A stretch of 64,000 bases of DNA from an uncultured Holophagaceae bacterium (lineage in GTDB: Bacteria; Acidobacteriota; Holophagae; Holophagales; Holophagaceae), in contig CAIOFF010000017.1 in NCBI GenBank assembly GCA_903857495.1, forward strand, positions 62,001 to 126,000, read 5' to 3'. Position numbers and translations under genes: made by a program. Shown here piece by piece: positions 37,014 to 64,000 of this stretch. The number at the start of each line of letters is the position of its first letter. Positions within the stretch are counted from its first letter, which is position 1. Under the pieces are notes generated by a model that was not told the origin of the DNA, did not search any database, and was given only the letters and a program-made list of their open reading frames with translations.

Positions 37014-39707
37014 CTACCTCTCAGACGCGGCTGCCAGCTCGCTCCAGAGGGAGGCCTGCCAGTAGGAGGCCAGGGCGGCGAGCTTCTCTTCGTCGTTGCC
37101 TTCCCGGCGGGCGTTGGCGATCTGGTAGGCCAGACGCGCGGGCGTGGGCACGAACCCCGCTGAAGCCTTGGCCCGGGCGGCGGCCTCCCGGGCATTCCGC
37201 CGGGCCAGGTCCAACTGGGCGGTGAGCGCCCGGCGGTTCTCCAGCACCACGCCTCCGCGAGCGTCGAATCCGGCCCCGAGCGAGTACCACTTGTTGACCA
37301 GCTTGGCCCCGTCCAGGAAGGCATAGCCGGCCGCGGCGAGGCGGATGAGCTTGGCGCCATCGCTGGACCTGTCCTGGCTTTCGGCCAGCATCTTGGCCTT
37401 CTGGGCGAGGTAATAGTCCGCTTCGCGGTTGGCGATCAGGGCCTTGGCCTCCTCGATGGAGAGCCCCTTGCCCTTGGCCACTTCCTCCGTGATCAGCGCA
37501 TCGAAGTAGGCGAGCACGGCCGTGGCCAGCGAGGCGTAGCTGGTGACGGCCCGGCTCACGGATCGGGTGCTGAGGGACTTGGCCTCGCCTTCCTCCGCGA
37601 TGAAATCCTGCATGTCCCGGGTGAACTCAAGCTGGACCTTCGACAGGTCGTAGTAGATCAGGGGCAGGGTGATCCGGGTCATGAGGGACTCGACGTTCTC
37701 GCCCTTGAGCTGACCCTTCTTTTCCTGGATCTTCTTGAGCACGGCCACGGCGGGAGTGGCGAAGTCATCGGCGATCAGGGCGGCCGCCCGCGCCTTCACA
37801 TAGGTGGCGCAGACACTTGAGCTGGTCAGCTGCCCGCCGCGGGTCTGGCGCAGGGCCTTGATCTCCAGCTGCTGCCCGTAGGCCGTGACCTCGCTGCTGA
37901 TGGAGGCAGCGCTCTGGATGGCCGCGACCAGGCCGCCCTGGTCGCCCTTGAACATGTGGGCGTAGGCCGAGACGGTCTGGGTGGCACCCGCGAAGGCGCT
38001 CACCGTGTGGACATAGCCCTGCAGGGCGGGCATGAGGAAGCCGTTGCGCTCATCGCGCTTGGCGGTCTCGAAGGCCTTCTCTGCTTCGGCCATGAGGTGG
38101 GCGTAGATCGGGGCAGGAACCCCAGTGGCCTTGACCTCATTCCGGAGCCGGGCCGCCTCGCGCTCGACCTGGGACTTCCAGCTCGCCAGCTTCGTGCGGA
38201 GGAGGGTCTGGGTCGCCAGAGCCGGCTCCATCTCAGCCTCGGCGATGGGCTCGGTGCGGGGCAGCTTGTCCCGGGTGAGGAACTCGTAGGCCTCGTGGAT
38301 GTCCCCGATCTCCTTGACCTCCAGGCCCAGCTTCTGGCCCACCAGCAGGAGGTCCACATCCTGCCCGGTCTTCTGGTCCTTGTGGTTGCGGCAGCCCAGG
38401 GGGAAGCCGAAGCGCTTGATGCCCGCCTGCTTGGCGCCCTCCATCTTCTGGACAATGCCGGTCACGGGGCCCGCGGTGCCGTCCGGGTTGATGGTCCCGG
38501 TCATGGTGGTGTCCTGGGGGATGGACTTCCCCCTCAGGAGGGCCAGCATTGCGGCGGTGGTCAGCATGCCGGCGGAAGGACCGTCCGTATGCCCGGACAC
38601 ATGGACATTGAACTCGCAGTCCGAGATGGAGGCTCCCAGCGTCCGGGTCGCGTTGAAGGCGGCCAGCCAGACGGCGGTGCGCCACTGGTTTCCGCCGCCA
38701 CCGGCGAACTCCTCGGAGACGCCGACCGAGACGGTTCCGGTGCGGTTGGGGCTCACGCGGATGCGGGCGGGGGCGGTCCCTCCGGTGGCGTTGGCTCCCG
38801 GCTGCCCGGAATACCAGACGAACTGGACGGTGGCCTCCCGGGTCTCCGAGAGGATGGTGCTGCCGCCCCCCGGGAGGTCGGGAAGCTCCCAGCCAAAGGC
38901 CTTGGTGAGGCCCCACAGGGCCAGCCCACAGAGTCCCACCAGGGCGGCACCCCGAAGGGCGAGTGTCCGCCGCGTCGTCCCTTTTGGCTTGGCTGTAACT
39001 TCGGCAGGGGGGGCTTCGGCGACGGGCGGGAGTATGGCCTGGGCTCTCGTGCGGATCTCGCGCAGCTCAAGCTTGAAGGAGGCGATCTCCAGCACGTCAC
39101 CGGGCTGCCAGAGCCACTCCGTGATGCGGTCCTGGCCATGCTTGGTTCCGTTGGTGCTGCCGAGATCCTTCAGCCGGACCTCGGCCCCGTCGAAGAGGAT
39201 CTCTGCGTGGGTCGAGGAGCACCGGACATCCGGCAGGACGATGTCCCCCTCGGCCCGGCCGATCACCGTGCGCGCCCGGAAGATCTCCTCGGTGCGGGGG
39301 GGCTGGTCTGGCGCATGAATGATCAGGAAGTAGGACGGCTCGGGTGCCGCGGCCATGACCTCCTTGTCGACGACCAGGGTGCCCTTGGGTCCCAGCAGCG
39401 GGGCGGCACTGAGATCCTCGAGGGTCAGCTCGTGACCTCCGATCTGCACCTTGGTCCCCGGCAGCCAGACCAGGTCGGTCACGGGCTTCCCCTCCAGCAG
39501 GGTGCCATTGGTGCTGCCAAGATCCCGGAGGCGCAGGGTCGCCCCCTCCAGGAGCAGCTCCGCATGGGTAGAGGAGCAGAGCGGGTCCTGCAGCAGGATG
39601 TCCCCATTCACGCGGCCGATCATCGTGCGCGGCTTGAGGATCGCCTGAGTGCTCGGGGGCACGCCGCCCGGCGTGTGGATGGTGACAACGAAGGCCGCAG
39701 CAGTCAT
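37014..39707 (-). CDS. FHA-FHA-transmembrane-Lon protease fusion
   Basis: The 897-residue protein has two N-terminal FHA domains (residues 5-97 and 125-217), each with the phosphothreonine-binding pattern GR, SSTHAE and GSTNGT. A basic linker and one membrane helix (LALRGAALVGLCGLALWGL) follow at about 251-270. Next comes a Lon-type (S16) proteolytic domain: catalytic S378 in DGPSAG and K421 in IVQKMEG, exactly 43 residues apart as in E. coli Lon S679/K722. The last 400 residues are helical. The AAA ATPase module of normal Lon is absent. Topology would put FHA inside and the protease outside. It is last gene of the caspase operon. Confidence 0.88.
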   Translation of the reverse strand: MTAAAFVVTIHTPGGVPPSTQAILKPRTMIGRVNGDILLQDPLCSSTHAELLLEGATLRLRDLGSTNGTLLEGKPVTDLVWLPGTKVQIGGHELTLEDLSAAPLLGPKGTLVVDKEVMAAAPEPSYFLIIHAPDQPPRTEEIFRARTVIGRAEGDIVLPDVRCSSTHAEILFDGAEVRLKDLGSTNGTKHGQDRITEWLWQPGDVLEIASFKLELREIRTRAQAILPPVAEAPPAEVTAKPKGTTRRTLALRGAALVGLCGLALWGLTKAFGWELPDLPGGGSTILSETREATVQFVWYSGQPGANATGGTAPARIRVSPNRTGTVSVGVSEEFAGGGGNQWRTAVWLAAFNATRTLGASISDCEFNVHVSGHTDGPSAGMLTTAAMLALLRGKSIPQDTTMTGTINPDGTAGPVTGIVQKMEGAKQAGIKRFGFPLGCRNHKDQKTGQDVDLLLVGQKLGLEVKEIGDIHEAYEFLTRDKLPRTEPIAEAEMEPALATQTLLRTKLASWKSQVEREAARLRNEVKATGVPAPIYAHLMAEAEKAFETAKRDERNGFLMPALQGYVHTVSAFAGATQTVSAYAHMFKGDQGGLVAAIQSAASISSEVTAYGQQLEIKALRQTRGGQLTSSSVCATYVKARAAALIADDFATPAVAVLKKIQEKKGQLKGENVESLMTRITLPLIYYDLSKVQLEFTRDMQDFIAEEGEAKSLSTRSVSRAVTSYASLATAVLAYFDALITEEVAKGKGLSIEEAKALIANREADYYLAQKAKMLAESQDRSSDGAKLIRLAAAGYAFLDGAKLVNKWYSLGAGFDARGGVVLENRRALTAQLDLARRNAREAAARAKASAGFVPTPARLAYQIANARREGNDEEKLAALASYWQASLWSELAAASER

Positions 39708-39834
39708 GCCTCTTCCTTGGGGTCTCGGCTCGCGCCGTCAATGGGGGTGGATCCTGCAAGATTAGCGCGAGAGGGCCACCCTCAGGGAAGGCGCGTTCCG
39801 GGACAGCGTCTTAAACCTGGCGGGACTGCGGCGA

Positions 39835-42800
39835 TCAGAGCTCCGAGAAGGCCAGGGGGAAATCAGAGACCTCGGTGCTCTTCTGGGTGGCCGGGGCCTG
39901 GGTTCCCTTGGTCAGTTCCTTCACCCTCTGGGTGATGTAGGCATCTAGCGCCGTGAAAGTGATGAAGCCCTGCCGGTCCTTCCCGGCCTTGCCCTTCAGG
40001 CCCTCCACCAGGGCCTTGGTGAAGGCCCCGTTGTTCCAGGCGGGGTGCTCCTGGGACTTCTGGCCGGGGCGGGAGGAGGTGATGACCACCAGCCCCTGGC
40101 CGCCATCCTTGAGGTCCTGGAGGAACTGCCGCAGGTCGGGGACGCCCCGCATGGCGGTCCCGGTGACATTCCCGGCGTGGCACGTGTCCATGAAGAGGAT
40201 GCGGGTGCCGGTGAGCCGCGCCAGCGTGGAGTGGATCTCCGAGCCCGGGATCATGGTCCGCTTCACCGCCTCGATGCTGGCGTCGTAGGGCAGGTAGTAG
40301 TAGTTCCCGGTGACGGCGTCGTTGATGCCGTGACCCGCCAGGAACACGATGACCATGTCCCGCTGGGTGGCCTGCCGCTGGATCCACTCCAGGTCGTCCA
40401 TGATGTTGTCGCGGGTGGCCTGGTCATCGGTGCGGACCCTGACGACCACGTCCCGGTACAGCTTGCCCTTCTGCAGGCTCATGGCCTCGGCGAAGTCCTT
40501 GGCGTCCTTCGAGGGATAGGTGAGCGTGATGTTCTTGTCCTTGTAGTTGCTCACGCCCACGGCCAGGAGGTAGAGGGTGGGCGGGCCTGCCGCCGCGGCG
40601 GTGGCGCCCTTCGCGGGTGTCTCCCAGTGCAGCTTCACCAGGGAGGGGTCGCTGGTGGCGTAGGGCGTCTCGGCATAGGCCATGACCGTGCAGTCCTTGG
40701 AGGGCAGGGTCAGGCTGAAATACTGGGTGTCCTCGGCCAGTCCCCGAGCGCCAGCGCCCGGAGTCACGGCTGGCGTCACTCTCTCGGCCTTCACCTCCTG
40801 GGCGTCCACGAGGATCCGGATGGCCGGCGGCGGGCTCTTGGGATCCCCGGTCACCCTCACGCCGAGCTGCACCACATTGGCGCGGATGAGGGCATTGTGC
40901 TGGGGCTCGATGATCGAGATCCGGGGCTTCGCCGCCTGGACCACCGAGCCGCGGGTCGCAGCCACCGGGGTGCTGGCCCCATCGAACCTGAGCCGGAGCA
41001 GCGCGGGCTTGCCCGCTCCGGAAGAGCCTTCGGGGAGCACCGAGATCTGACAGTCCCGAGGCGGCAGGGGCAGGCTGACCTCGAGCACCTGGCCCACGGG
41101 GTAGGGCGGGCTGAGGGGGCCCCCTGCGGGAGACTGGGGGACAACGTCGACGGGAGCGCCAGCCACGAAGACCTGCAGCCGCGTGACCTCTGTGCCGGGA
41201 GTGCCACCAACCTTCACGGAGAGCTGGACCTCCGGCCCCTTGAAACGTGACCCATCCCCAGGCGAGAGAACTTGCAGGCTGGGGAGGCCGGGCTGTGCAG
41301 GACGGGAGGCTGTCGCGGGCGAAGCCGTGCCTGCATTTCGAGGGGCCGCCTTGCGGGCGGAGTCAGCAGCGGGATCCCGCCAGCGGAGGCGCCCCTTGGC
41401 ATCCACCTCCATGGCCGCCGCGGATCCCTGGGGACTGCCTTCAAGGATCCGGCTCGTCTGCTCCCCGGCCCTCACCTTGCCGAATTCCGTTCCCACCGTG
41501 CCTCCTGCGAGGGGTGCCTCGCCTGGCACCAGGCCGGCATGGGCCGGGGCAGGGGACTTGGTGGAGGGCGTGAGCTGGCTCTTCCACTGGAGCTTCGCCA
41601 CCGCGGGGGCACTGCTGGCATGGTCCGTGTCGGCGACCAGCATCAGGGTGCTGTCCCAGCCTGGCACCTCGATGCGGCAGTGGTAGGTCTCGCCGTTGAC
41701 CCAGCCCAGGGCGGAATCGAAGGGCGCGCCATTGGCGCGGGTGATGTTCCGGAAAGCGACGGGCACGCCATCCAGCAGGGCGTGGACGAGGGTGACCGGC
41801 TGGCCGGGCGGGGAGCTGACCCGGAAGGACACGACGAGGGAAGGCGACTGGAGGAACACCTTCCCCGCAGGACTCAGCAGGGTGACCGTGGGAGGGATCA
41901 CCTTCAGGTCCTGGGCGGTCTTCGAGCTCCTCTGCAGCGACAAGAGGGCCGGTTCACTGGAGCCGCCCGGGCTGTCTGCCTGCAGCAGGATGGTCGTATC
42001 CCGGTCCGACAGCTGGACCCTGCAGGTGTAGCGGCGGCCACTCTGGAAGCTCGCACCGATGGAGCCTTCCGAGGGTGTGGCAGCGGCGCCGGGGGAGGGT
42101 GTAAAGGTGAGGTGCGCGGGGTGGCCCCCGGCCAGGATCCGGATCCGGGACACGGGTCGCTCGGGCGGGAAGGTCACCTGAAAGGCCAGGTCCACGCCGC
42201 CCGACGCCACCTTGGCGCCCTGCCCCGGGCTCAGGATGGTGAGGACCGGCAGCTCCTCGAGGGGTCTCGACGCTAGCCGTGGCGGAACCGCGACGGACCA
42301 GCGGGCCAGGGCCCTGCCGCCTTCGGTGACGGCCAGCAGGGCCCCGCTGCTCATGGAGAACGCCAGCGAGAGGATGGGTTCGTCCACCGTGAGCGTGCGG
42401 GAGGCGGGGGTGCTCCGCTCCAGTCCCGAAAAGGCCTGCAGCGTCCGTCCCGAAGCGACCAGCAGTCCAGAGGCATCCGAGGCGAAGGTCAGCAGCGCGA
42501 CCTCCCGGCCCGCGAGATCGGGATCCAGCTGCTTGAGGGTCTGCCCATCGGAAAGCCGCTTCAGCAGCAGTCTGCCGTTCTTTCCGCCCACCGCCAGGGA
42601 CCGGGCATCGGGAGCATAGGCGAGGGCCGAAACCTGAAAGTCCAAGGTCCACGTCTGCTTCAGGGCGAAGCCGGGGACCTCGCGGACCTCCAGGGTCTTT
42701 CCCGCGGCCAGGACAACGGTATTCCCCGCGGGGGCGAACCGGATGGACGTGCCGGGGGATCCCGCTGCTGACCAGACGGTGGCGCCCGTGCGGGGGTTCA

Positions 42801-43266
42801 GCACGTACATCCCTTTGGAGGTGGCCACCGCCAGTAGATCCAGGTCCGGAGACAGGCTCAGATCCTGGATGCTGCCCTCGGTCACCCAGAGTCGCCTCGG
42901 GGCATCCTCCTGGTCCACCGAGGCCGACCAGACCTCCCGTTCGGTGGCCACCAGGGCGACCCCCGCTCGCCCTTCCAGGGCCAGGGCCGTGACCTTCCCG
43001 GGGAGGGGGCCGAAGGTCCGGAGGGTCCGCCCGGAGGCCAGCGCCACCGTCCGGAGCGTGTTGCCCTGCTGCAGGAGCAGGGCCGTGCTCCCGTCCGGGG
43101 AGAGGGCGAGCCGCTGCTGGGCCTCGGAGCTGGGCATGGCCCGTTCCGGCACGGTCACCGTGAGCAGCTCCTGGCCGGTCATGGCGCCGGCAAGAAGGAA
43201 CAGCAGGGCCAGGATTGCCCGGCGCCTGCCATGCACGGCAGCTCCCTTGGAGACAGAGGACGGCAT
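39835..43266 (-). CDS. Exported beta-propeller protein with C-terminal caspase-like domain
   Basis: The 1143-residue protein has an N-terminal signal sequence (ILALLFLLAGAMTGQ). WD40/PQQ-like propeller repeats fill roughly residues 40-330 (LALSPDGSTALLLQQGN, LSLSPDLDLLAVATSKG, LAYAPDARSLAVGGKNG). Beta-sandwich modules separated by Pro-rich linkers extend to about 920. The peptidase C14 domain (935-1110) has H979 in VFLAGHGIND and C1029 in FMDTCHAGN, the caspase dyad. It is probably periplasmic. The ATG at 43266 is used here, but a GTG at 43236 behind AAGGGAG is just as good. A 24-base gap separates it from the previous gene; FHA-Lon follows after 127 bases. Confidence 0.88.
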   Translation of the reverse strand: MPSSVSKGAAVHGRRRAILALLFLLAGAMTGQELLTVTVPERAMPSSEAQQRLALSPDGSTALLLQQGNTLRTVALASGRTLRTFGPLPGKVTALALEGRAGVALVATEREVWSASVDQEDAPRRLWVTEGSIQDLSLSPDLDLLAVATSKGMYVLNPRTGATVWSAAGSPGTSIRFAPAGNTVVLAAGKTLEVREVPGFALKQTWTLDFQVSALAYAPDARSLAVGGKNGRLLLKRLSDGQTLKQLDPDLAGREVALLTFASDASGLLVASGRTLQAFSGLERSTPASRTLTVDEPILSLAFSMSSGALLAVTEGGRALARWSVAVPPRLASRPLEELPVLTILSPGQGAKVASGGVDLAFQVTFPPERPVSRIRILAGGHPAHLTFTPSPGAAATPSEGSIGASFQSGRRYTCRVQLSDRDTTILLQADSPGGSSEPALLSLQRSSKTAQDLKVIPPTVTLLSPAGKVFLQSPSLVVSFRVSSPPGQPVTLVHALLDGVPVAFRNITRANGAPFDSALGWVNGETYHCRIEVPGWDSTLMLVADTDHASSAPAVAKLQWKSQLTPSTKSPAPAHAGLVPGEAPLAGGTVGTEFGKVRAGEQTSRILEGSPQGSAAAMEVDAKGRLRWRDPAADSARKAAPRNAGTASPATASRPAQPGLPSLQVLSPGDGSRFKGPEVQLSVKVGGTPGTEVTRLQVFVAGAPVDVVPQSPAGGPLSPPYPVGQVLEVSLPLPPRDCQISVLPEGSSGAGKPALLRLRFDGASTPVAATRGSVVQAAKPRISIIEPQHNALIRANVVQLGVRVTGDPKSPPPAIRILVDAQEVKAERVTPAVTPGAGARGLAEDTQYFSLTLPSKDCTVMAYAETPYATSDPSLVKLHWETPAKGATAAAAGPPTLYLLAVGVSNYKDKNITLTYPSKDAKDFAEAMSLQKGKLYRDVVVRVRTDDQATRDNIMDDLEWIQRQATQRDMVIVFLAGHGINDAVTGNYYYLPYDASIEAVKRTMIPGSEIHSTLARLTGTRILFMDTCHAGNVTGTAMRGVPDLRQFLQDLKDGGQGLVVITSSRPGQKSQEHPAWNNGAFTKALVEGLKGKAGKDRQGFITFTALDAYITQRVKELTKGTQAPATQKSTEVSDFPLAFSEL

Positions 43267-43290
43267 CTCGGTAGCAGCTCCAGGAAAGAC

Positions 43291-43992
43291 TCAGGACATT
43301 CCGGGGGGGGGAGAGGGCGGAATCACGGGGGAGGCCGCGGCCGGTGGCGCGCTGGGGGGCTCCATGGGAGGCGGTGGCGGCGGGGCCTGGGGCGGCGGCG
43401 CGGAGGGTGCCATGGCTCCGAACTCTGAGGGCGAGCGCCAGCGCTGGGTGCCGAGCTCCGCCGCGCGCTGGTCCTTGATGGCCCTGTTGCCGGAGAGCCA
43501 GCCATCGAGGAGCGTGCGGCTCCTGTCCAGGAGGGCCGCGGTGATGAGCGGCAGGAGGATCGGCAGGAAGCGGTTGCTGGCGCCTTCACAGGTGGTGCCC
43601 TGGATGTACTTGTCGAGTTCCTGGGAGCTGGTGTTGACGGCCTGCATGAGCTGCTTGAATTTTTCCGGCGGCGTCTTGTCGCTGTATTTGAGCTCGGCGA
43701 TCACCATATCGATCAGCTGGTTGGCCTTGCTCTTCAGCGAGAGGTAGCGGGAGTAGGTGCCCGCGTATTTCACGGAGTTGGCCTGGCACTCGTTCTGCAC
43801 TTTGATGAGCTGGTCCTGCCAGTACTCCCGCTTGGCATTAAGGCAAACAAAGTACTGCATCTTGTTCTTCAGGTTCGCATTTTCGGACAGGCAGTCGCCC
43901 TCCTCCACGGCAGGCGGAGCCTGGGATGCAACCGGGACCCCCGCCGCCAGGAAGAGCAACGCTGCTGAAAGCAATGAGACTCCACGGCGCAT
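43291..43992 (-). CDS. Exported Cys-containing helical protein with Pro-rich tail
   Basis: The 233-residue protein has a signal peptide (MRRGVSLLSAALLFLAAGVP) and a helical mature domain with four cysteines (GDCLSENAN, YFVCLNAKR, NECQANS, TTCEGAS) that could form two disulphides. A hydrophobic segment near residue 146 (FLPILLPLITAALL) and a long proline-rich tail (PPPQAPPPPPPMEPPSAPP) follow. The ATG at 43992 is chosen because GAGG lies eight bases upstream. It is first in the operon with the caspase and FHA-Lon genes. No family is recognised. Confidence 0.75.
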   Translation of the reverse strand: MRRGVSLLSAALLFLAAGVPVASQAPPAVEEGDCLSENANLKNKMQYFVCLNAKREYWQDQLIKVQNECQANSVKYAGTYSRYLSLKSKANQLIDMVIAELKYSDKTPPEKFKQLMQAVNTSSQELDKYIQGTTCEGASNRFLPILLPLITAALLDRSRTLLDGWLSGNRAIKDQRAAELGTQRWRSPSEFGAMAPSAPPPQAPPPPPPMEPPSAPPAAASPVIPPSPPPGMS

Positions 43993-44176: not shown

Positions 44177-44947
44177 ATGGACACCTTGATCACTTCCCTC
44201 GGCTGCTTCGGCCCCGCGGCCCTCTTCGTGGTGATCTACCTGTTCTCCTGCCTCAAGGTGGTGAACGAATACGAGCGGCTGGTGGTCTTCACCCTGGGCA
44301 AGGTGGAGGACAAGCCCAAGGGACCAGGCCTCTGCTTTGTCTGGCGCCCCTTCCAGACTGCCATGACCGTGAGCCTTCGCACGGGCGTGCTGGAGGTGCC
44401 GAGCCAGGACGTCATCACCCGCGACAACGTCAGCCTGAAGGTCAGCGCCGTGGTCTACTCCCGGGTGCTGGATCCCAAGCAGGCCATCATCGGCGTCGAG
44501 AACTACTACTACGCCACCAGCCAGATCGCCCAGACTACCCTGCGCTCCATCCTGGGCGAGGTCAGCCTCGATGAGCTGCTGGCGGACCGGGAGAAGCTCA
44601 GCGCCCGCCTGCGGGAGATCATCGACCGCTCCACCGAGCCCTGGGGCGTGGAAGTGAGCAGCGTGGAGCTCAAGAGCGTCGACCTGCCCGAGCAGATCCA
44701 GCGCGCCATGGGCAAGCAGGCCGAGGCCGAGCGCGAGAAGCGGGCCAAGGTCATCGCGGCCGAGGGCGAGCTGCTGGCCTCCGAGCAGCTGCTGGAAGCC
44801 GCCAACAAGATCAGCCAGAACCCCACGGCCATCCAGATGCGCTACCTGCAGACCCTCACGGAGATCGCCGTGGAGAAGAACAGCACCATCGTCTTCCCGC
44901 TGCCCATGGAGCTCATGAAGGCCTTCGAGAAGTTCACCCAGAAGTAG
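44177..44947 (+). CDS. Slipin/stomatin (SPFH-domain) membrane protein
   Basis: The 256-residue protein has an N-terminal membrane segment (LGCFGPAALFVVIYLFSCL), the SPFH core (VVNEYERLVVFTLGKVEDKP, GLCFVWRPF, VDLPEQIQRAMGKQAEAER) and a C-terminal coiled-coil tail. Slipins scaffold membrane microdomains and usually pair with an NfeD-type partner, which is not next to it here. GGAGG precedes the ATG. It is convergent with the transglutaminase gene, overlapping it by 14 bases. Confidence 0.92.
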   Translation: MDTLITSLGCFGPAALFVVIYLFSCLKVVNEYERLVVFTLGKVEDKPKGPGLCFVWRPFQTAMTVSLRTGVLEVPSQDVITRDNVSLKVSAVVYSRVLDPKQAIIGVENYYYATSQIAQTTLRSILGEVSLDELLADREKLSARLREIIDRSTEPWGVEVSSVELKSVDLPEQIQRAMGKQAEAEREKRAKVIAAEGELLASEQLLEAANKISQNPTAIQMRYLQTLTEIAVEKNSTIVFPLPMELMKAFEKFTQK

Positions 44948-46907
44948 GCTTCCAGCCACGCCAGGCGCGGGCTTCGGCCCTCGCTAGGGCGGTGGCTGCG
45001 CCGCGGTTGCCAGAGTAGGCCTCGGCGTCCACGGCCTCGGCCAGGGCGGCGAGGGCCTCCCGGCGGTCGGGGCGCAGCTCGCCCAGGCGCAGCAGCCAGG
45101 CCCGGGCCGTCTCGCCCACCCGGGGCGCGGCAAAACGCCGGGTGCGCGCCAGCAAGGGGGCCAGGGCCCGGATGCGGCCGGGTCCTTCGGGGGCCGTCCG
45201 CCAGCGGGCGCGGGTGCGCCAGAGCAGCCAGGCGAGGGCTGCGAGGCCCAGGGCTCCGAGCAGGGGCCGGGACGGCGCGCGCCAGTGCCACTCCCAGCCC
45301 TGGGCGCGGGCCTGGAGCCAGGCCAGACCGCTCTGCTGGTCCTGGTCCGAGAAGCGCACCACGTAGCGCTCCCAGCGGTAGCGGACGGCATCCAGCCAGC
45401 GCGCCAGAGGGCCAAAGCCCTGGGCTTCCCCCGCGGCGCCCGCGGCGCCCGCCGGGGTCGGATCCACCGTGAACCAGCGGCCCTCGTGCCAGTACTCCAC
45501 CCAGCTGTGGGCCTCGTTCTGGCTCACGCGGAAGTAGCCCCCCTCGGGAATCCAGGGCCCCAGCCGGTAGCCGTTCACCACCCGGGCCGGAACCCCCCGG
45601 GCCCGCAGCATCAGCGCCAGGGCGGAGGCGAAATACTCGCAGTGGCCGGCCTGGGTCTGCTCAAGGAAGGCCTCGAGGGGATTGGCGGCCGGCCCGGCTG
45701 GGTTCTCCAGGGTGTAGCGGAAGCGGCCCAGGGCCGCAGCCAGCGTCTGGACCAGCTGTGGCGCGGGCAGGATGCCCGGGGCAAAGCGCAGACTGGCCCG
45801 GCGGGCGGCGTCGTGCTCCGGCTCCAGAGTGGTCAGCAGCTCCAGGCGGCGCGGGGTCAGGCGCCGCTCCGCAACCCCCGGCTCCCGGGGATCCCAGGTC
45901 ACGGTGACCGGGGCGGTGCGGGTCCGCGGGTAGCGCCACCGGAGGCTGGCACCGGGACCCGCCACCAGGGGCAGCTCGGCGGGCTCCAGGGAGGCCAGGC
46001 CGGCCGGCAGGGCCAGGATGCCGTGGGCGCTCGGGGTGTAGAGGATCTCGGCCCGGTGCGGTTCAGAGCCGGTGGCCCGGGCGCGCGCCAGGGCCGGCGT
46101 CAGGGCCGCGGGCTCCCAGCGGGGACCTCGGACCACCTCCAGGGTGATGCCGCGCAGCAGCGCCAGCCCCTGGGCCCAGTCGGGGTTCCGGTGGGGGTCG
46201 ACCCCCTCGGGCGGGAGGATGCGCAGGGCCACCTCGGGATTGGGTTCGAGGGGCCCCCCGCCGGACAGGTCCAGGCGCTCACTGAGGCCGGCCTGGCCGA
46301 TGCCGGTGCCAGCCCCTGCCAGGAGGGCCGGCCGCAGGCCCAGGCTCAGCCGCGGCAGGATCACGAAGAACCCGGCGCCAAAGAGGGCGGCCGCGCCCAC
46401 CCAGAGGGGCACCCGGGCCAGCGGCGGACGGGGCGGGGGGCCGGGCCGCAGGGCCGCGGAGGGCTCCCAGGCCTGCTGCACCAGGGCCAAGGTGGCGACG
46501 CAGGCCCAGGCCAGCGTCCAGAGGAAGAAGAGGAGGTCCGTGCCCGCGATGGCCGTGGTCAGGTAGAGCAGGAAGCCGATCAACAGCAGCTGGCGTCGCT
46601 GGGGCAGCTCGCGGGGCAGGGCCAGGCGGGCGCCGGCCAGGACGAAGAGGGTCTGGATGGCCACGGGAAAGATCCCGTGGCCGCGGGCCAGATTTCCGAG
46701 AAAGAACACCAGGGCGCCGATCTCCACCCAGCGGCGCCGCCGCTCGAGGTCCCAGCGCAACGCCTGCACCGCCGCCGCCGCGACCAAGGGCAGCACCATC
46801 AGCGCCAGCTCCCCGCTCTCGTAGATCCCCGTGGCCACCGTGGCTCCAAGGGCCACCCAGAGCGGCAGGTGATCGCTCCAGGGGGCCCACCGGAGCCTCA
46901 GGCCCAC
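44934..46907 (-). CDS. TgpA-like membrane transglutaminase
   Basis: This 657-residue protein has six or so membrane helices in its first 200 residues. A large extracytoplasmic part holds a transglutaminase-like domain with the catalytic triad Cys in HCEYFASALALML (about residue 420), His in NEAHSWVEYWHEG (about 465) and Asp in VDPTPAG (about 481). A last membrane helix (LLGALGLAALAWLLW) and a cytoplasmic DUF4129-like tail follow. This matches TgpA/DUF3488 proteins, often encoded with MoxR and DUF58; here it stands alone. It starts with GTG overlapping the anmK stop by ten bases. Confidence 0.88.
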   Translation of the reverse strand: MGLRLRWAPWSDHLPLWVALGATVATGIYESGELALMVLPLVAAAAVQALRWDLERRRRWVEIGALVFFLGNLARGHGIFPVAIQTLFVLAGARLALPRELPQRRQLLLIGFLLYLTTAIAGTDLLFFLWTLAWACVATLALVQQAWEPSAALRPGPPPRPPLARVPLWVGAAALFGAGFFVILPRLSLGLRPALLAGAGTGIGQAGLSERLDLSGGGPLEPNPEVALRILPPEGVDPHRNPDWAQGLALLRGITLEVVRGPRWEPAALTPALARARATGSEPHRAEILYTPSAHGILALPAGLASLEPAELPLVAGPGASLRWRYPRTRTAPVTVTWDPREPGVAERRLTPRRLELLTTLEPEHDAARRASLRFAPGILPAPQLVQTLAAALGRFRYTLENPAGPAANPLEAFLEQTQAGHCEYFASALALMLRARGVPARVVNGYRLGPWIPEGGYFRVSQNEAHSWVEYWHEGRWFTVDPTPAGAAGAAGEAQGFGPLARWLDAVRYRWERYVVRFSDQDQQSGLAWLQARAQGWEWHWRAPSRPLLGALGLAALAWLLWRTRARWRTAPEGPGRIRALAPLLARTRRFAAPRVGETARAWLLRLGELRPDRREALAALAEAVDAEAYSGNRGAATALARAEARAWRGWKPTSG

Positions 46908-58487: not shown

Positions 58488-59270
58488 ATGGGCCCATTCC
58501 ACACACCACAGCGCAAGAATGGCGGGTATTCACTCATCGAGATGTTGGTGGTGCTGGCCATCATCGGGGTTCTGGCGATTGCAGGTGTGGCCACCCTGGG
58601 GAATCGCGGCGGCAATTCAGTGAGAGGGACCCTGGACCAGCTCGAGGGCGCCATCATGGACGCTCACAAATATGCGGTAAGCACGGGCAAAGACGTGGCC
58701 ATCGTCACCTGGGGCCCCTACAGTGCCACGAGTACGACTCCCAGCATGTACATGGCCCGGGGCCTTACGACCACGACTACGGTCGCGCAGACTGATTTTG
58801 CTCTGGCCATCAAGGATGTGGTCCTCAATCCGCCAGCCACCCCCAGTGCCACACAGCAGTCTGTTGCGACGATTTTTGCGCCTTCCCTTGCACGGGAATA
58901 CATGAACGTGGGCATTGTGATCCCCGGGACCACTGGGTGGGCCACCGCCATGCAGGCCAACAGCAGCGGGAAGCAGAACCCCAACATCACTAGCGTGGTG
59001 CCTTTCAGTACGGATGCAGGCTTCAAGTTGGCCTACCCTGCCGCTGCCAACAACCTTTTCCAGAATGCGCTTAACTCGGTGACCATCAGCGGTGCCAACA
59101 AGCGGTTCAACAACAGCTTCTTCATCCAGGTGGTCAGCACCTCAAGCGGCGGCTTTGCCGTTGCGGGCGGAGCCATGGGATTGATCGTGGTGCTGAACAA
59201 CGGTGCCACGGTCTACAAGTTCTACAACTCTGGTGTGAACAACGGGGATGGCCAGTGGAGGAGGGTCTGA
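58488..59270 (+). CDS. Type IV pilus minor pilin, FimT/GspH-like
   Basis: The 260-residue prepilin has a short leader ending GG, with cleavage G13/Y14 and mature YSLIEMLVVLAIIGVLAIAG: Glu at +5 as required for assembly. A pilin beta-fold follows, with low-complexity Ser/Thr/Gly-rich stretches. It should prime pilus assembly in the inner membrane after processing by PilD. It is the first gene of an operon with PilV-, PilW-, PilX- and PilY1-like genes, overlapping the next by TGATG. The coding sequence has visibly lower GC than priA before it. Confidence 0.88.
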   Translation: MGPFHTPQRKNGGYSLIEMLVVLAIIGVLAIAGVATLGNRGGNSVRGTLDQLEGAIMDAHKYAVSTGKDVAIVTWGPYSATSTTPSMYMARGLTTTTTVAQTDFALAIKDVVLNPPATPSATQQSVATIFAPSLAREYMNVGIVIPGTTGWATAMQANSSGKQNPNITSVVPFSTDAGFKLAYPAAANNLFQNALNSVTISGANKRFNNSFFIQVVSTSSGGFAVAGGAMGLIVVLNNGATVYKFYNSGVNNGDGQWRRV

Positions 59271-59785
59271 TGCGGCGCCTGCGATCTAGCACCTTTGACC
59301 ATGCCCAGCGGGGCTTCAGCTTGGTGGAGCTGCTTCTGACCGCATTCATCATGGCGGTAGGGATCATGGGCCTGACTCTGCTCCAGGTCATGGCGCTCCG
59401 GGGTGCCCGTGGAGGCCAGAGCCTCGCCACTGGCGTACAGGTGGCTGAAATGGTCATGGATCAGATCGAGATGGAGGGGCGCCTCTCCTGGCTTAACCTC
59501 ACCGCCAGTCAAGCTGCGACTCCGGCTGCTCTGACCACGTTGAAATACATCAACAAGGTGCCCCTGGCCGACCCACTGCCATTCACCATCAAGGGGCAGG
59601 TGCCAGTGGCTGGTGCTACTGATCCAGCTGATGCGGCGACTTTTTACACGGCAGTTATTGGGCAGGCCAACATTGGCACCGCTGGGAATGGGGTCATCTC
59701 CAACTTCACCGTCATCGTGAGTTTCTCGGATCAGGCTAATGCCCCTCGGCAAGTGCGGATATCCAGGAGCATTCTCCATGGCTAA
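59270..59785 (+). CDS. Type IV pilus minor pilin, PilV-like
   Basis: The 171-residue prepilin has cleavage site G15/F16 and a mature N-terminus FSLVELLLTAFIMAVGIMG with Glu at +5. The PilV-type pattern follows (LTLLQVMALRGARGGQSLA). The ATG shares a base with the upstream TGA and follows GGAGGAGG. It is a membrane-held minor pilin of the priming complex. It overlaps the PilW-like start by eight bases, consistent with translational coupling. Confidence 0.85.
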   Translation: MRRLRSSTFDHAQRGFSLVELLLTAFIMAVGIMGLTLLQVMALRGARGGQSLATGVQVAEMVMDQIEMEGRLSWLNLTASQAATPAALTTLKYINKVPLADPLPFTIKGQVPVAGATDPADAATFYTAVIGQANIGTAGNGVISNFTVIVSFSDQANAPRQVRISRSILHG

Positions 59786-61010
59786 GCGGAATCAATGCCC
59801 ACGGGCGGGGTTCTCCCTCGTCGAGCTGCTGGTCGCCGTGCTGTTCATTGGCATCCTGATGGCTGGCATGGCCAATGTCTTCAAGTCCAGCGTCAACACC
59901 ATGGCCACCTCCAGCGAAGGAATATCCAGTAACCGCCGGAATCGCATGTCCATCGATCTGCTCTACGATGATCTCAACATTGCTGGCCTGTATATTACGG
60001 ATCTAGTCAATCTGCCCCCGCTATCGAGCGCCAATCCAGCCCTCTACATCCTACCCAACGTGGCTGTGGTTGGTGCTGGATCGGATGATCCTCAGACGGC
60101 GGACCAGCTGTTTTTCTACCTGGATCAGCCCCTCTCCTTCGAAGGCACCTTGGTTGGCACCGGTGGCGGGGTGGGAACCAATACCGCACGAAGCGCCAGC
60201 CAGCTGGTGATGGCCCAAGCTGCATCGACGGCAGGCGCCGACAACGTCTACACCGTCGATTGCGGGAATACCGCCTACGCCAGCATGGTGCAGGCCGGGT
60301 ATTCGGTGGTCATCAAGGACTCATGGGAAATCTTGGCTATTCAGGGTACCCCCACTGTCGCAGGAACGAAGGTGACCTTTACACTCGGCACCAGCCCGAC
60401 AGTCGCCATGACCGGATCGGGCCCATCGGACGGGCCATCCAGGAGTAGTCACATTCTGAACAGCGCCGTGTTGTTCTACCAGCCCGCCCAGGTGGTCTGC
60501 TACAGCGTGCAGATGAAACAGTTTGATCCCCAGAACGCCACTGGCATCCCCTGCCTTGTGAGGGATCAGGGCACCTATGGTGCCGCTGGATTTGTGGCTG
60601 TTCCCGCCCTGCAGACCCTCGTCACCGAAAATGTCGCAGGCTTCAAAGTCTACCTGAGTGCCAACTCGGGCCAAGGCTGGGCGGGGCTCAACGCAGCCTA
60701 CTCGGGCGCCCCAGGCTACGGTTCCGCAGGTTACCCAAGTTCTGCAGGCCTATCCGCTGGATGGACCAACGGGGTGCAGGCTGATCTCAATATTCAGCTA
60801 ACTGCTGCAGGCCGCCCCAATTTCACAACGACCACGGGAAACCCGAACTGGTTCCGCGACATACCCACCCTGGTACGCCTTGACATCACCACCCGGACAG
60901 CGACGAAGCGGTCCGAGTACTCTGCCACACCCCTCACGACTGTCGCCTACAGGAACTTCACCCAGAGCCTCGTGATGGTGCCCCGGCACTCCGGCCTGAC
61001 GATGAACTGA
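59778..61010 (+). CDS. Type IV pilus assembly protein, PilW-like
   Basis: This 410-residue protein has leader cleavage at G11/F12 and mature FSLVELLVAVLFIGILMAG with Glu at +5. The PilW-type helix NRRNRMSIDLLYDDLNIAGLY follows, then a long beta-rich region with Gly/Ala/Ser repeats (NAAYSGAPGYGSAGYPSSA). It is longer than the usual PilW by loop insertions. AGGAG lies ten bases before the ATG at 59778. Confidence 0.85.
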   Translation: MAKRNQCPRAGFSLVELLVAVLFIGILMAGMANVFKSSVNTMATSSEGISSNRRNRMSIDLLYDDLNIAGLYITDLVNLPPLSSANPALYILPNVAVVGAGSDDPQTADQLFFYLDQPLSFEGTLVGTGGGVGTNTARSASQLVMAQAASTAGADNVYTVDCGNTAYASMVQAGYSVVIKDSWEILAIQGTPTVAGTKVTFTLGTSPTVAMTGSGPSDGPSRSSHILNSAVLFYQPAQVVCYSVQMKQFDPQNATGIPCLVRDQGTYGAAGFVAVPALQTLVTENVAGFKVYLSANSGQGWAGLNAAYSGAPGYGSAGYPSSAGLSAGWTNGVQADLNIQLTAAGRPNFTTTTGNPNWFRDIPTLVRLDITTRTATKRSEYSATPLTTVAYRNFTQSLVMVPRHSGLTMN

Positions 61011-61021
61011 TGGGAGCAATC

Positions 61022-61666
61022 ATGCGCTGCCGAACAGACCGCTCTTTCCGAGATCCCCAGACGGGAGGGATCACCATCCTCGTCACCCTCATGCTGCTGG
61101 TGCTGATCACCGTCGCCGCCATGAGTATGTCCAAGAATGCCCTGCGCGAACTGATGATCTCCGGCACCAGCCGTCAGGGCTCGATGGCCCGCAACGTTGC
61201 TGACTCCGGCATTGAATGGGCTACTTATTGGGTGGATCAGTACAACTCGCCCGCCGCTACCGGTACTGCTCAGATGTTGAACAACCTGAAAGTGTACCTG
61301 GGCCAGAATCCCAACATGGCAGGCATCGCCTGGGACCCCACCAGTGCCCCCCCCTACACGAAATACAATCCGGCGGCTCTGGCGCCGCCTCCTGGGGACA
61401 CGACCGTTAGCGTTACGACGAATGGCACCACCCAAACCACCCAAGGGTTCACGGTGGCCCTGACCCGAATGGGCAAGCTGCCCATCACCAACATGAGCCA
61501 GGGGATCAGCCAGGGCTCCTATACACCCGCCGCGGGTGCCGTTCCCCTGCAGGCTCCCGACCTCTGGGCTTTCCGGTCCGACAGCCAGGTCACGGTCGGC
61601 ACCGGTCCCTTGGCCATGACTTTCTTCCATGCCAAGGAAGCCTGGATCAGCACTCCCGCCCAATAA
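61022..61666 (+). CDS. Type IV pilus assembly protein, PilX-like
   Basis: This 214-residue protein has an N-terminal membrane segment of PilX_N type (GGITILVTLMLLVLITVAAM), without the +5 Glu that is usual in pilins, as in PilX proteins. Extracytoplasmic beta-rich sequence with long Gly/Thr loops follows. The ATG at 61022 is preferred because GGGAG stands at the right distance. An in-frame ATG at 61010 overlaps the previous stop. Confidence 0.8.
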   Translation: MRCRTDRSFRDPQTGGITILVTLMLLVLITVAAMSMSKNALRELMISGTSRQGSMARNVADSGIEWATYWVDQYNSPAATGTAQMLNNLKVYLGQNPNMAGIAWDPTSAPPYTKYNPAALAPPPGDTTVSVTTNGTTQTTQGFTVALTRMGKLPITNMSQGISQGSYTPAAGAVPLQAPDLWAFRSDSQVTVGTGPLAMTFFHAKEAWISTPAQ

Positions 61667-61691
61667 GCCCTTTCAGCGACAGGAATCCCGC

Positions 61692-64000
61692 ATGAGCCGA
61701 CCCCTGAAATCCTCGATGGGCGCTTCCCTTGCCTTCTTCGCAGGTCTCCTGCTCGCCTGCCTGCCCCTGCAGGCCCAGCTCAATCCGCAGCTGCAGAATA
61801 GTCCAACGGATTTCCTGAATCTTTACCAGCAAGCGAACAACGTGAAACCACCGCCAGAGATCGTAACCGTGTTCGACTTCTCCGGGTCCATGTCGGCCCT
61901 CATGTTCCACCCGCTCTATGTGAACCTGGATAGGCCCGACAGCACTACTCACAACAACATGACGTTTGTGCTTTCGGGATCCGCCGGTTCGCGCAAGGTG
62001 ACTGCCACTATTAAGGGTTCCACCGTAGGGACTTTGACCAGCACAATACTAGTTCGGCCTGATGGTTCCCAGGTCACGGAGACGATGGCTGGGACAGTCA
62101 GTCCGACAGGAAAGTTGGCTGGTGACGCGAATGGCGCTGCAGATGTCCGGAATTGGTTGCGTGCCGCAAGCCATGTTCGTTTCAAATACACCGGCGTTTC
62201 TCCGAATCGGACCGTGGATATACCGATTCCCTGGAAAATTACAGATCACACATCCCACGGCAATCCGTTGTCCTCAATGTACTTGACGGATCAACAGGTC
62301 AAAATCAACCCCGATGGCACCACCACCACCTACGGCAGTTCATCCCCCACCGTGGAAGTGGATCTGTGCTACCAAATTGGTGGCACTACTGGTTCTTATA
62401 TTTTCAGTACTTCTAGCGCAGACACGTCACTTCTTTCGACTTCGACTGCACTAACCAGCACTACACTGACATATGGGCCGGCCACAGGGAATGGCACGGG
62501 CATGTATACCAATGCATATATCGATTGGCTCTTCCTTGGGAAGTACGGCACAGGACAACCTTACGCTGGCCAATACATCGTCTTTGACGCGACCACGACT
62601 GGCTTAGCTGGAGGCCAAACATCAACCACGGACCCCAATGCTGATTGGGGCCGAGGCTATGGCTACGGACCTGGCTCCAACCTTACTAGCCCCTACACCG
62701 CTACTTCTACTATTACTGCAAGTACTATCCAGGTCCCCCGATTCGATGGTTCAGGTGTTTACACGGGTTACATCACCAACTTCGCCACAGCGAACGTGGT
62801 TCCGGCCTACACTCGCTGTCAGGCCGTCAAGCGTGCCGCCATTCAGGCCTGGATCCAGAATCAGGGCAATGTCCTTTGGGCTTTCCGGTTCCTGGATACG
62901 GTTACGGAGGCTACTTCCCCCAGCCAAACCAAGATTGACAACAATTCCGCCACCACCATGAACGTCAGTTCCGGCACCCCCCCAACTGTTCCAACCACTC
63001 AGAAGAATGGATCCGATAGCGGCTGGACAATCCTGAACAATTCAGCCGCGCAGGGAAATCAAGCTGCGAACGGCAATTCCGTTAATGGCATGAAGCGCAT
63101 TGCCAGCCTGTTCCCGAACAACGGCACCCCTCTGACCTATGCGGTGGCCAACGCCCTGGCCCAGTTCAACGATCCCAACAACGTGTTCAGCACAGCGGAG
63201 ACGGGGGCCGCCGCTCCCTCGGCGTGTATGAATCACTTCCTGATCGTGTTCACGGATGGCGTCGACAACAACAATTCTAACAACGTAAATCCAAACGGCA
63301 CGACGCCCTACATTGATTATGTTTCCGGGGTGCCAACTGCTCTAAATGCACTGGCTGGCAACCAGTATGTCCTCGGAAACAACTCAAGCATTAATACAAC
63401 CGGCTCGTATTGGAACATCTTCACCTTTGCCGGCATGGCGGCTCACCTCACAGACAGCAATCTCGGCAGTTTGAGTAACCCCAATATGGGACACACGACG
63501 GTTGCCCAGCCAGTTGCAGGCACTTCGGACGTGCCAAGTAAGTTCCTCCCCTTTGCCATCAAGAATCGCGGGTCTGTCGATTTCGGGTCATACGGTCACA
63601 GGATTACCACCATGACGGTGGGCGTGAGCCTGGGGGGCTATTACACAGACCCCACGTCAATAACGTCCAGCCCCAAGCGGAACCTGTTCCTGGCTGCAGT
63701 TGTTGGAGATGTGCAAACCACCTCGGGGGCTTATAGTACTTTCCATGCCTTCGTTCCCCCAGTAAGAAATGCGGATGGCACTTACACCTACAACGATTGG
63801 CTGCCGAATCCCATTGACAAGGGCGATTACCCAGCCGTCGGCCTTAGGAATCCCGGAGCCACTTATTTCTTCGACGGCAGCGACCCCGAGGCTCTTGCCA
63901 CGGACCTTCAATACGCACTGCTGGCGGCCCTTGGCTCACCGAATATCAACTCCACGGTGCCTCCGAACATTCCCTTCATCGGCACCAGCTTCAGCAATGA
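61692..64000 (+). CDS. PilY1-like adhesin/tip protein, N-terminal part
   Basis: This open frame runs without a stop from the ATG at 61692 past the right edge, so at least 769 residues are visible. It has a signal peptide (LAFFAGLLLACLPLQAQ) and an immediate VWA-type MIDAS motif in VFDFSGSMSALM (D62, S64, S66). Later comes FLIVFTDGVDNNN, the second strand of the VWA fold. Between them lie Ser/Thr/Gly-rich inserts. This fits PilY1-type proteins that sit at the pilus tip and modulate retraction and adhesion. It is last visible gene of the pilin operon. The C-terminal propeller is outside the window. Confidence 0.82.
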   Translation, partial: MSRPLKSSMGASLAFFAGLLLACLPLQAQLNPQLQNSPTDFLNLYQQANNVKPPPEIVTVFDFSGSMSALMFHPLYVNLDRPDSTTHNNMTFVLSGSAGSRKVTATIKGSTVGTLTSTILVRPDGSQVTETMAGTVSPTGKLAGDANGAADVRNWLRAASHVRFKYTGVSPNRTVDIPIPWKITDHTSHGNPLSSMYLTDQQVKINPDGTTTTYGSSSPTVEVDLCYQIGGTTGSYIFSTSSADTSLLSTSTALTSTTLTYGPATGNGTGMYTNAYIDWLFLGKYGTGQPYAGQYIVFDATTTGLAGGQTSTTDPNADWGRGYGYGPGSNLTSPYTATSTITASTIQVPRFDGSGVYTGYITNFATANVVPAYTRCQAVKRAAIQAWIQNQGNVLWAFRFLDTVTEATSPSQTKIDNNSATTMNVSSGTPPTVPTTQKNGSDSGWTILNNSAAQGNQAANGNSVNGMKRIASLFPNNGTPLTYAVANALAQFNDPNNVFSTAETGAAAPSACMNHFLIVFTDGVDNNNSNNVNPNGTTPYIDYVSGVPTALNALAGNQYVLGNNSSINTTGSYWNIFTFAGMAAHLTDSNLGSLSNPNMGHTTVAQPVAGTSDVPSKFLPFAIKNRGSVDFGSYGHRITTMTVGVSLGGYYTDPTSITSSPKRNLFLAAVVGDVQTTSGAYSTFHAFVPPVRNADGTYTYNDWLPNPIDKGDYPAVGLRNPGATYFFDGSDPEALATDLQYALLAALGSPNINSTVPPNIPFIGTSFSN

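Follow-up and report, generated by a model that had tools for sequence, protein, structure and literature searches.

A conserved caspase and FHA-Lon gene unit with a small partner gene in Holophagaceae, and its possible role as a trans-envelope protease module

The window analysed here, a stretch of 64,000 nucleotides from contig CAIOFF010000017.1 of an uncultured Holophagaceae bacterium, carries on its minus strand three consecutive genes, which run from a small gene (43992-43291) through a caspase gene (43266-39835) to a gene whose product unites FHA domains with a Lon-type protease domain (39707-37014; henceforth FHA-Lon). They are separated by 24 and 127 bases, exactly as given in a preliminary description of this DNA, and the two protease folds named there, a C14 caspase and an S16 Lon domain, are borne out by Pfam, by invariant catalytic dyads and by an S16 structure model. 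All of the domains which it had listed are present, but it had overlooked four Ig domains and a linker motif in the caspase protein and a helical tail of about 400 residues in FHA-Lon. A terminator-like site was sought in the 127-base gap between the caspase and FHA-Lon genes and none was found. The features of the locus are the following (TM, transmembrane; aa, amino acids):

43291..43992, minus strand: small protein with predicted export, 233 aa, with a signal peptide, a helix-rich core (by sequence) and a Pro-rich tail
43267..43290, minus strand: gap between the small gene and the caspase gene, 24 bases
39835..43266, minus strand: propeller - 4 Ig - C14 caspase protein with predicted export, 1143 aa (Pfam, alignment, structure model)
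41380..41460, minus strand: linker motif RILEG..Q......EVDAKGRLRW, residues 603-629, in 8/8 operon caspases
39847..40581, minus strand: caspase (C14) domain, residues ~896-1140, dyad H979/C1029
39708..39834, minus strand: gap between the caspase gene and the FHA-Lon gene, 127 bases (106-203 bases at orthologous loci)
37014..39707, minus strand: FHA-FHA-TM-S16(Lon)-helical tail protein, 897 aa (Pfam, alignment, structure model)
38898..38969, minus strand: single TM helix, residues 247-270, positive on its N-side (the FHA side) and acidic on its C-side
38259..38840, minus strand: S16 (Lon) proteolytic domain, residues ~290-483, dyad S378/K421, without AAA+
37017..38219, minus strand: helical tail, residues ~497-897, highly conserved, no family match

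In Pfam searches the 897-residue FHA-Lon protein shows two FHA domains (E 3.6e-24) and a Lon_C domain (1.3e-9), with the FHA-like YscD model also scoring over its cut-off. Both FHA domains retain GRxxGD, SSTHAE and GSTNGT, so that the phosphopeptide motifs are intact, and the structure model contains two FHA folds, which match the structures of GarA, OdhI and FhaB. The S16 fold is firmly predicted by the same model: residues 290-483 form a complete S16 fold, which aligns with 8dvh_A (VIA Z 19.0, 2.5 A over 172 residues), and the best Foldseek match of the model is the proteolytic domain of E. coli Lon (TMt 0.76). S378 and K421 are invariant across nine aligned rows and are spaced by 43 residues, as are S679 and K722 of E. 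coli Lon. The invariance of this dyad suggests that the Lon domain is likely an enzyme, more than a receptor; given that the dyads of both proteases are invariant in the alignments, it is unlikely that the two are dead enzymes. No AAA+ domain scored over the Pfam cut-off and the Lon equivalog models reached 25-46 bits against cut-offs above 500, which sets the protein apart from the ATP-dependent LonA and LonB. It likewise gave no match to the PDZ domain (the SepM model scored 19 bits against a cut-off of 200), and no SAVED or CARF sensor domain was found in the 897 residues with Pfam and NCBIfam. The presence of one TM helix and the positive-inside distribution of charge lend good support to the predicted topology, already proposed in the preliminary description, in which the FHA domains are cytoplasmic and the Lon domain lies across the membrane in the periplasm.

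The 1143-residue product of the middle gene matches Peptidase_C14 (PF00656; 72.6 bits against a cut-off of 21.4, E 5e-20), in addition to propeller models and Big_7, and it opens with a segment that resembles a signal peptide (mean hydropathy 1.82 at residue 17). In its structure model (mean predicted local distance difference test score, pLDDT, of 74), with boundaries that are our own reading of the model's elements, a propeller (~35-330) is followed by four Ig domains (~340-450, 458-562, 662-762 and 780-882) and the caspase domain (896-1140). As the Foldseek rows for this model are all propellers, the evidence for the caspase and Ig folds comes from Pfam and from the secondary structure of the model. 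H979 and C1029 are invariant in eight orthologues, across which 75% of the columns are invariant in the caspase domain and 1% in the propeller. Between Ig2 and Ig3 the model predicts a disordered linker (563-658), and it is here that the conserved motif is located: 11 of its 27 columns are invariant, as against 1 of 69 in the remaining linker, so that it accounts for 11 of the 12 invariant columns of the linker. When nine caspases encoded at other loci were scanned for the RILxG...GRLRW pair, none of them had it. By analogy with ortho- and metacaspases the enzyme would probably prefer Arg/Lys, a preference described for orthocaspases (PMC6426788).

The small protein possesses a signal peptide, a second hydrophobic stretch (137-155) and a tail in which 20 of the last 40 residues are Pro, but with four Cys in all, every one of them invariant, it is Pro-rich without being Cys-rich, as it had earlier been labelled. 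It and the caspase protein both bear predicted export signals, in line with the earlier proposal that the two are exported. Although no Pfam model matched it over the cut-off, a distant version of it is fused N-terminally to a WD40-caspase in three genomes (G037, G038 and G024; hhalign 97.2%, E 3.7e-11). From these natural fusions we take physical partnership with the caspase to be the most likely role of the small protein, one which had been suggested for it before. C69 and C135 are kept in the fused forms (there C50/C116), which suggests that they might form a disulfide in an oxidising compartment. A search of 396 genomes with a profile of the small gene gave matches in Holophagaceae only.

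FHA-Lon orthologues were found in 9 of 77 genomes of the order, one of which has two copies; with a tenth genome (G056), where the first FHA domain lies at the contig end, there are 11 FHA-Lon loci altogether. That the three genes go together, as the preliminary description had it, is seen in the order small gene - caspase - FHA-Lon, which is kept in 8/8 viewable Holophagaceae loci (the window, L042, L044, L046, L047, L048, L049 and L135); a ninth (G040:C302) shows caspase - FHA-Lon, and the contig of G030 is too short to judge gene neighbours. The flanks are of at least three kinds, namely UvrC/metallo-hydrolase and SPFH genes (window, G040, G048), a papain gene (L046, L047, L049, L135) and a gene for a CARDB protein (L048). 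All three genes evolve under purifying selection, the ratio of nonsynonymous to synonymous substitution rates (dN/dS) being 0.09-0.17 for the window against G048 and 0.19-0.29 against G031. The order kept in eight loci and the purifying selection rule out chance neighbours, and we hold the anatomy given above and the status of the trio as a functional unit to be very probable.

The distribution of the trio across the order is patchy, and as the host tree is unresolved, loss and transfer are indistinguishable. The identity of the Lon protein to that of G063 is 73%, as against 62-63% to those of the g6 genomes, the corresponding values for UvrC being 80 and 81-82%; this contrast in sequence identity is only a hint of horizontal transfer. 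No plasmid copies were detected by blastn. At about position 14900 of L042, inside the caspase gene, G040:C150 goes abruptly from ~87% to 100% identity with the window and stays identical through FHA-Lon and the downstream genes, which could reflect either recombination or a chimeric assembly; the carriers with named records are all metagenome-assembled genomes (MAGs).

Beyond the trio, named records with the FHA-Lon family comprise Holophagaceae, an 'Acidobacteria' groundwater MAG and one Polyangiaceae MAG, and a search of 184 Polyangiales genomes recovered two further homologues. One of these (L160) has a single FHA domain and neither a caspase nor a small-gene neighbour. Downstream of the other (L161:1667-4971) are two Ser/Thr kinases in tandem, with EB-like modules at their C-termini, the first of them at a distance of 15 bases. 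The contig of L161 starts inside the Lon domain and that of L102 likewise short of the TM helix, which leaves the FHA domains out of view in both. Matches elsewhere in the phylum (396 sampled genomes beyond Holophagaceae), judged by length and coordinates, were short ones to the Lon region in open reading frames (ORFs) mostly of ordinary-Lon length, and were rejected as FHA-Lon relatives.

Papain-like protease genes accompany the operon in 5 of the 11 FHA-Lon loci of the order. In four of them a gene for a divergent secreted papain (C1A) adjoins the small gene (L046:566-3304, L047:3558-6112, L049:320-2124 and L135:66-1475), while in G040:C302 (L043) the papain gene lies 3' of FHA-Lon. A chagasin-type (I42) inhibitor is encoded beyond the papain in L046 and L047 (by Pfam) and in L049 (by similarity). 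Genomes with the operon carry a papain more often (6/10) than the remaining genomes of the order do (15/67; p 0.02, uncorrected for phylogeny); no papain was found in the window genome. Near related propeller-caspases at other loci there are genes for CHASE2-cyclases and a CHASE2-kinase (L131:13750-15534, L132:11785-13629 and L133:4372-7101), predicted to be another pairing of caspase and envelope sensor. G038 also codes for an exported-looking caspase fused to ~15 Sel1 repeats (L131:6293-9031), beside two other caspase genes. The housekeeping genes uvrC, anmK and tsaD flank the operon, and upstream of it in the window a gene for a TgpA-type transglutaminase membrane protein (44934-46907) adjoins the SPFH gene. 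Further along, at 58488-63998, a large PilY1-like ORF lies together with genes for minor pilins resembling those of type IV pili, all named from sequence features; this stretch lies at least partly in DNA of lower G+C content (57.5% over 60-64 kb, against 64-75% elsewhere).

The full reading which we consider the best explanation of these observations, with a probability that falls somewhat short of even, is that the three proteins constitute a trans-envelope protease module. Sequence and genome evidence support two of its elements, namely a membrane protein predicted to place two FHA domains on the cytoplasmic side and, in the periplasm, an S16 Ser-Lys protease domain without an ATPase, and an exported caspase that would be held together with its small Pro-tailed partner. 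The steps which connect them are our inference. A Thr-phosphorylated protein or a Ser/Thr kinase would bind the FHA domains, and the resulting clustering or rearrangement (or gating) would switch on the Lon domain, with the conserved helical tail probably mediating oligomerisation; a precedent for this step is CalpL, an ATPase-free Lon in which oligomerisation driven by a ligand triggers the cleavage of one specific partner (PMC11417357). The Lon domain would then cut the caspase linker at RILEG..Q..EVDxxGRLRW, parting the propeller and Ig1-Ig2 from Ig3-Ig4-caspase, and the caspase, thus unleashed or re-targeted, would process envelope or extracellular substrates. In some relatives the secreted papain, with or without the chagasin-type inhibitor, might be part of the same proteolytic island. 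We see an even chance that the module is under FHA/kinase control. The direction from Lon to caspase is a more tentative proposal, which we think rather doubtful, and we would be equally guarded about the complete inside-out switch, in which a kinase signal would reach the periplasmic Lon by way of the FHA protein, and from there the partner-bound caspase, as a two-protease cascade.

Several observations weigh against such a module. FHA-Lon is solitary in G052, a member of Holophagaceae, and occurs without the caspase in Polyangiales; as it is found without the caspase and the small gene, the caspase cannot be its only use. The preliminary description had named such homologues as evidence against itself, and its picture of a phospho-signal passed to a Lon domain that would act with or on the caspase is supported in part, by the conserved Holophagaceae unit, the predicted topology and export and the intact FHA motifs. 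A Ser/Thr kinase in the neighbourhood, for which it had advised a search, is encountered directly downstream in the one Polyangiales genome, but although the window genome yields 20 kinase matches (about 18 kinases), none of these is on the window's contig. Further, confidence in the Lon protein model is modest (mean pLDDT 59), with the tail left unresolved, the caspase of G056 is devoid of a propeller, which is accordingly not essential to the unit, and the boundaries of the linker motif were drawn after the alignment had been seen, so that a Fisher test of its conservation has descriptive value only. This motif may also serve for docking instead of cleavage.

It is conceivable that the order of events is the reverse, with the exported caspase and the small protein serving as an envelope sensor which, upon envelope stress or the binding of a ligand to the propeller or Ig domains, would cut the Lon protein or its tail, and with the FHA domains relaying this outside-in signal to cytoplasmic phosphoproteins. 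This would account for the propeller and Ig domains, which are typical ligand or adhesion modules, and for the Arg sites of the linker motif, which fit self-processing, and it has a parallel in the related propeller-caspases near CHASE2-cyclases and a CHASE2-kinase. The propeller is, however, dispensable in G056, the invariant Lon dyad points to an enzyme beyond a receptor, and FHA-Lon occurs elsewhere without the caspase, so that we regard this order as unlikely. The operon might instead belong to a secreted digestive or scavenging protease island, in which the caspase, papain and Lon would serve to turn over proteins of the envelope or outside the cell or to acquire nutrients, while the FHA domains would do no more than link their activity to growth state. 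The secreted papain beside the operon, the chagasin-type inhibitor in three loci and selection that is purifying rather than diversifying are compatible with this, but the window genome lacks a papain, the conservation of the caspase domain goes far beyond what bulk digestion would require, and it would be odd for a digestive enzyme to be controlled through FHA domains, all of which render the island quite improbable.

We are still more sceptical of general envelope quality control by an FHA-tethered analogue of the YlbL/SepM-type Lon proteins which would mature exported proteins or clear them away, with the caspase as one substrate among several: the membrane-tethered, ATPase-free S16 architecture and the solitary FHA-Lon proteins of G052 and Polyangiales suit such a role, but the strict co-location with the caspase and the small gene in Holophagaceae, despite varying flanks, does not. 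A cell-death or anti-phage defence module akin to caspase-based systems is in our view very unlikely. The patchy distribution would agree with defence, Lon- and caspase-type effectors are known in type III CRISPR systems (PMC11417357), and PADLOC returned a caspase match (1.5e-10), but this is to the generic domain, as are the kinase and cyclase matches of the relatives. Apart from a marginal HEC-07 match (E 0.021) PADLOC gave nothing that would complete a system's component set, and no match for the Lon or the small protein. The low dN/dS, the housekeeping flanks and the predicted location of the protease parts in the periplasm, at a distance from phage DNA and from most targets of cell-death effectors, also speak against defence.

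Should the trans-envelope protease module prove correct, it would mean that bacteria possess a route by which phosphorylation in the cytoplasm sets off protein cleavage beyond the inner membrane, carried out by a caspase. Exported bacterial caspases would thereby gain a regulator, and the Lon families already described would be joined by one that has no ATPase, is controlled through FHA domains and occurs in two phyla; the linker motif makes the step from Lon to caspase directly testable.

In the open-access literature we found no published system of this composition, in agreement with the preliminary description, which knew of none. A survey of prokaryotic serine proteases reports Lon_C with AAA, sigma54, Mg_chelatase and PDZ, and FHA with trypsin only (PMC2605481), and a survey of prokaryotic caspases nowhere mentions FHA (PMC3501461). 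Individual parts nevertheless have recognisable counterparts. The FHA domains share their fold and phosphopeptide motifs with GarA, OdhI and FhaB, but here two of them sit on a transmembrane protease. In YlbL and SepM an ATPase-free S16 domain lies outside the membrane, tethered by an N-terminal TM helix. FHA-Lon resembles these proteins, whose architecture is PDZ-Lon (PMC6411480) and of which SepM cuts a peptide signal (PMC11197336), in being a membrane-tethered ATPase-free S16 protein, and differs from them in lacking a PDZ domain and in possessing two cytoplasmic FHA domains and a large helical tail. The caspase can be compared with the WD40-bearing metacaspases and orthocaspases, some of them exported, which also combine WD40 and caspase domains (PMC3501461), but goes beyond them in its four Ig domains and its conserved linker motif. 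A small 5' gene and a membrane-proximal 3' caspase gene recall the two-gene EACC1-caspase system (PMC7159879), but here the caspase domain is C-terminal and exported, and NF047832, the model for caspase domains of the EACC1-associated type, scores 81.6 bits against a cut-off of 140; the small protein has no EACC1 match in Pfam or NCBIfam, the presence of an EACC1 model in either being unconfirmed. Finally, the trio parallels the CalpL/CalpT/CalpS system of type III CRISPR loci, likewise of three parts, in which an ATPase-free Lon is joined to a sensory SAVED domain and CalpL cuts its partner (PMC11417357); in the Holophagaceae unit the sensor would be FHA instead of SAVED, the protease is predicted to be periplasmic, and the proposed partner is a caspase rather than an anti-sigma factor.

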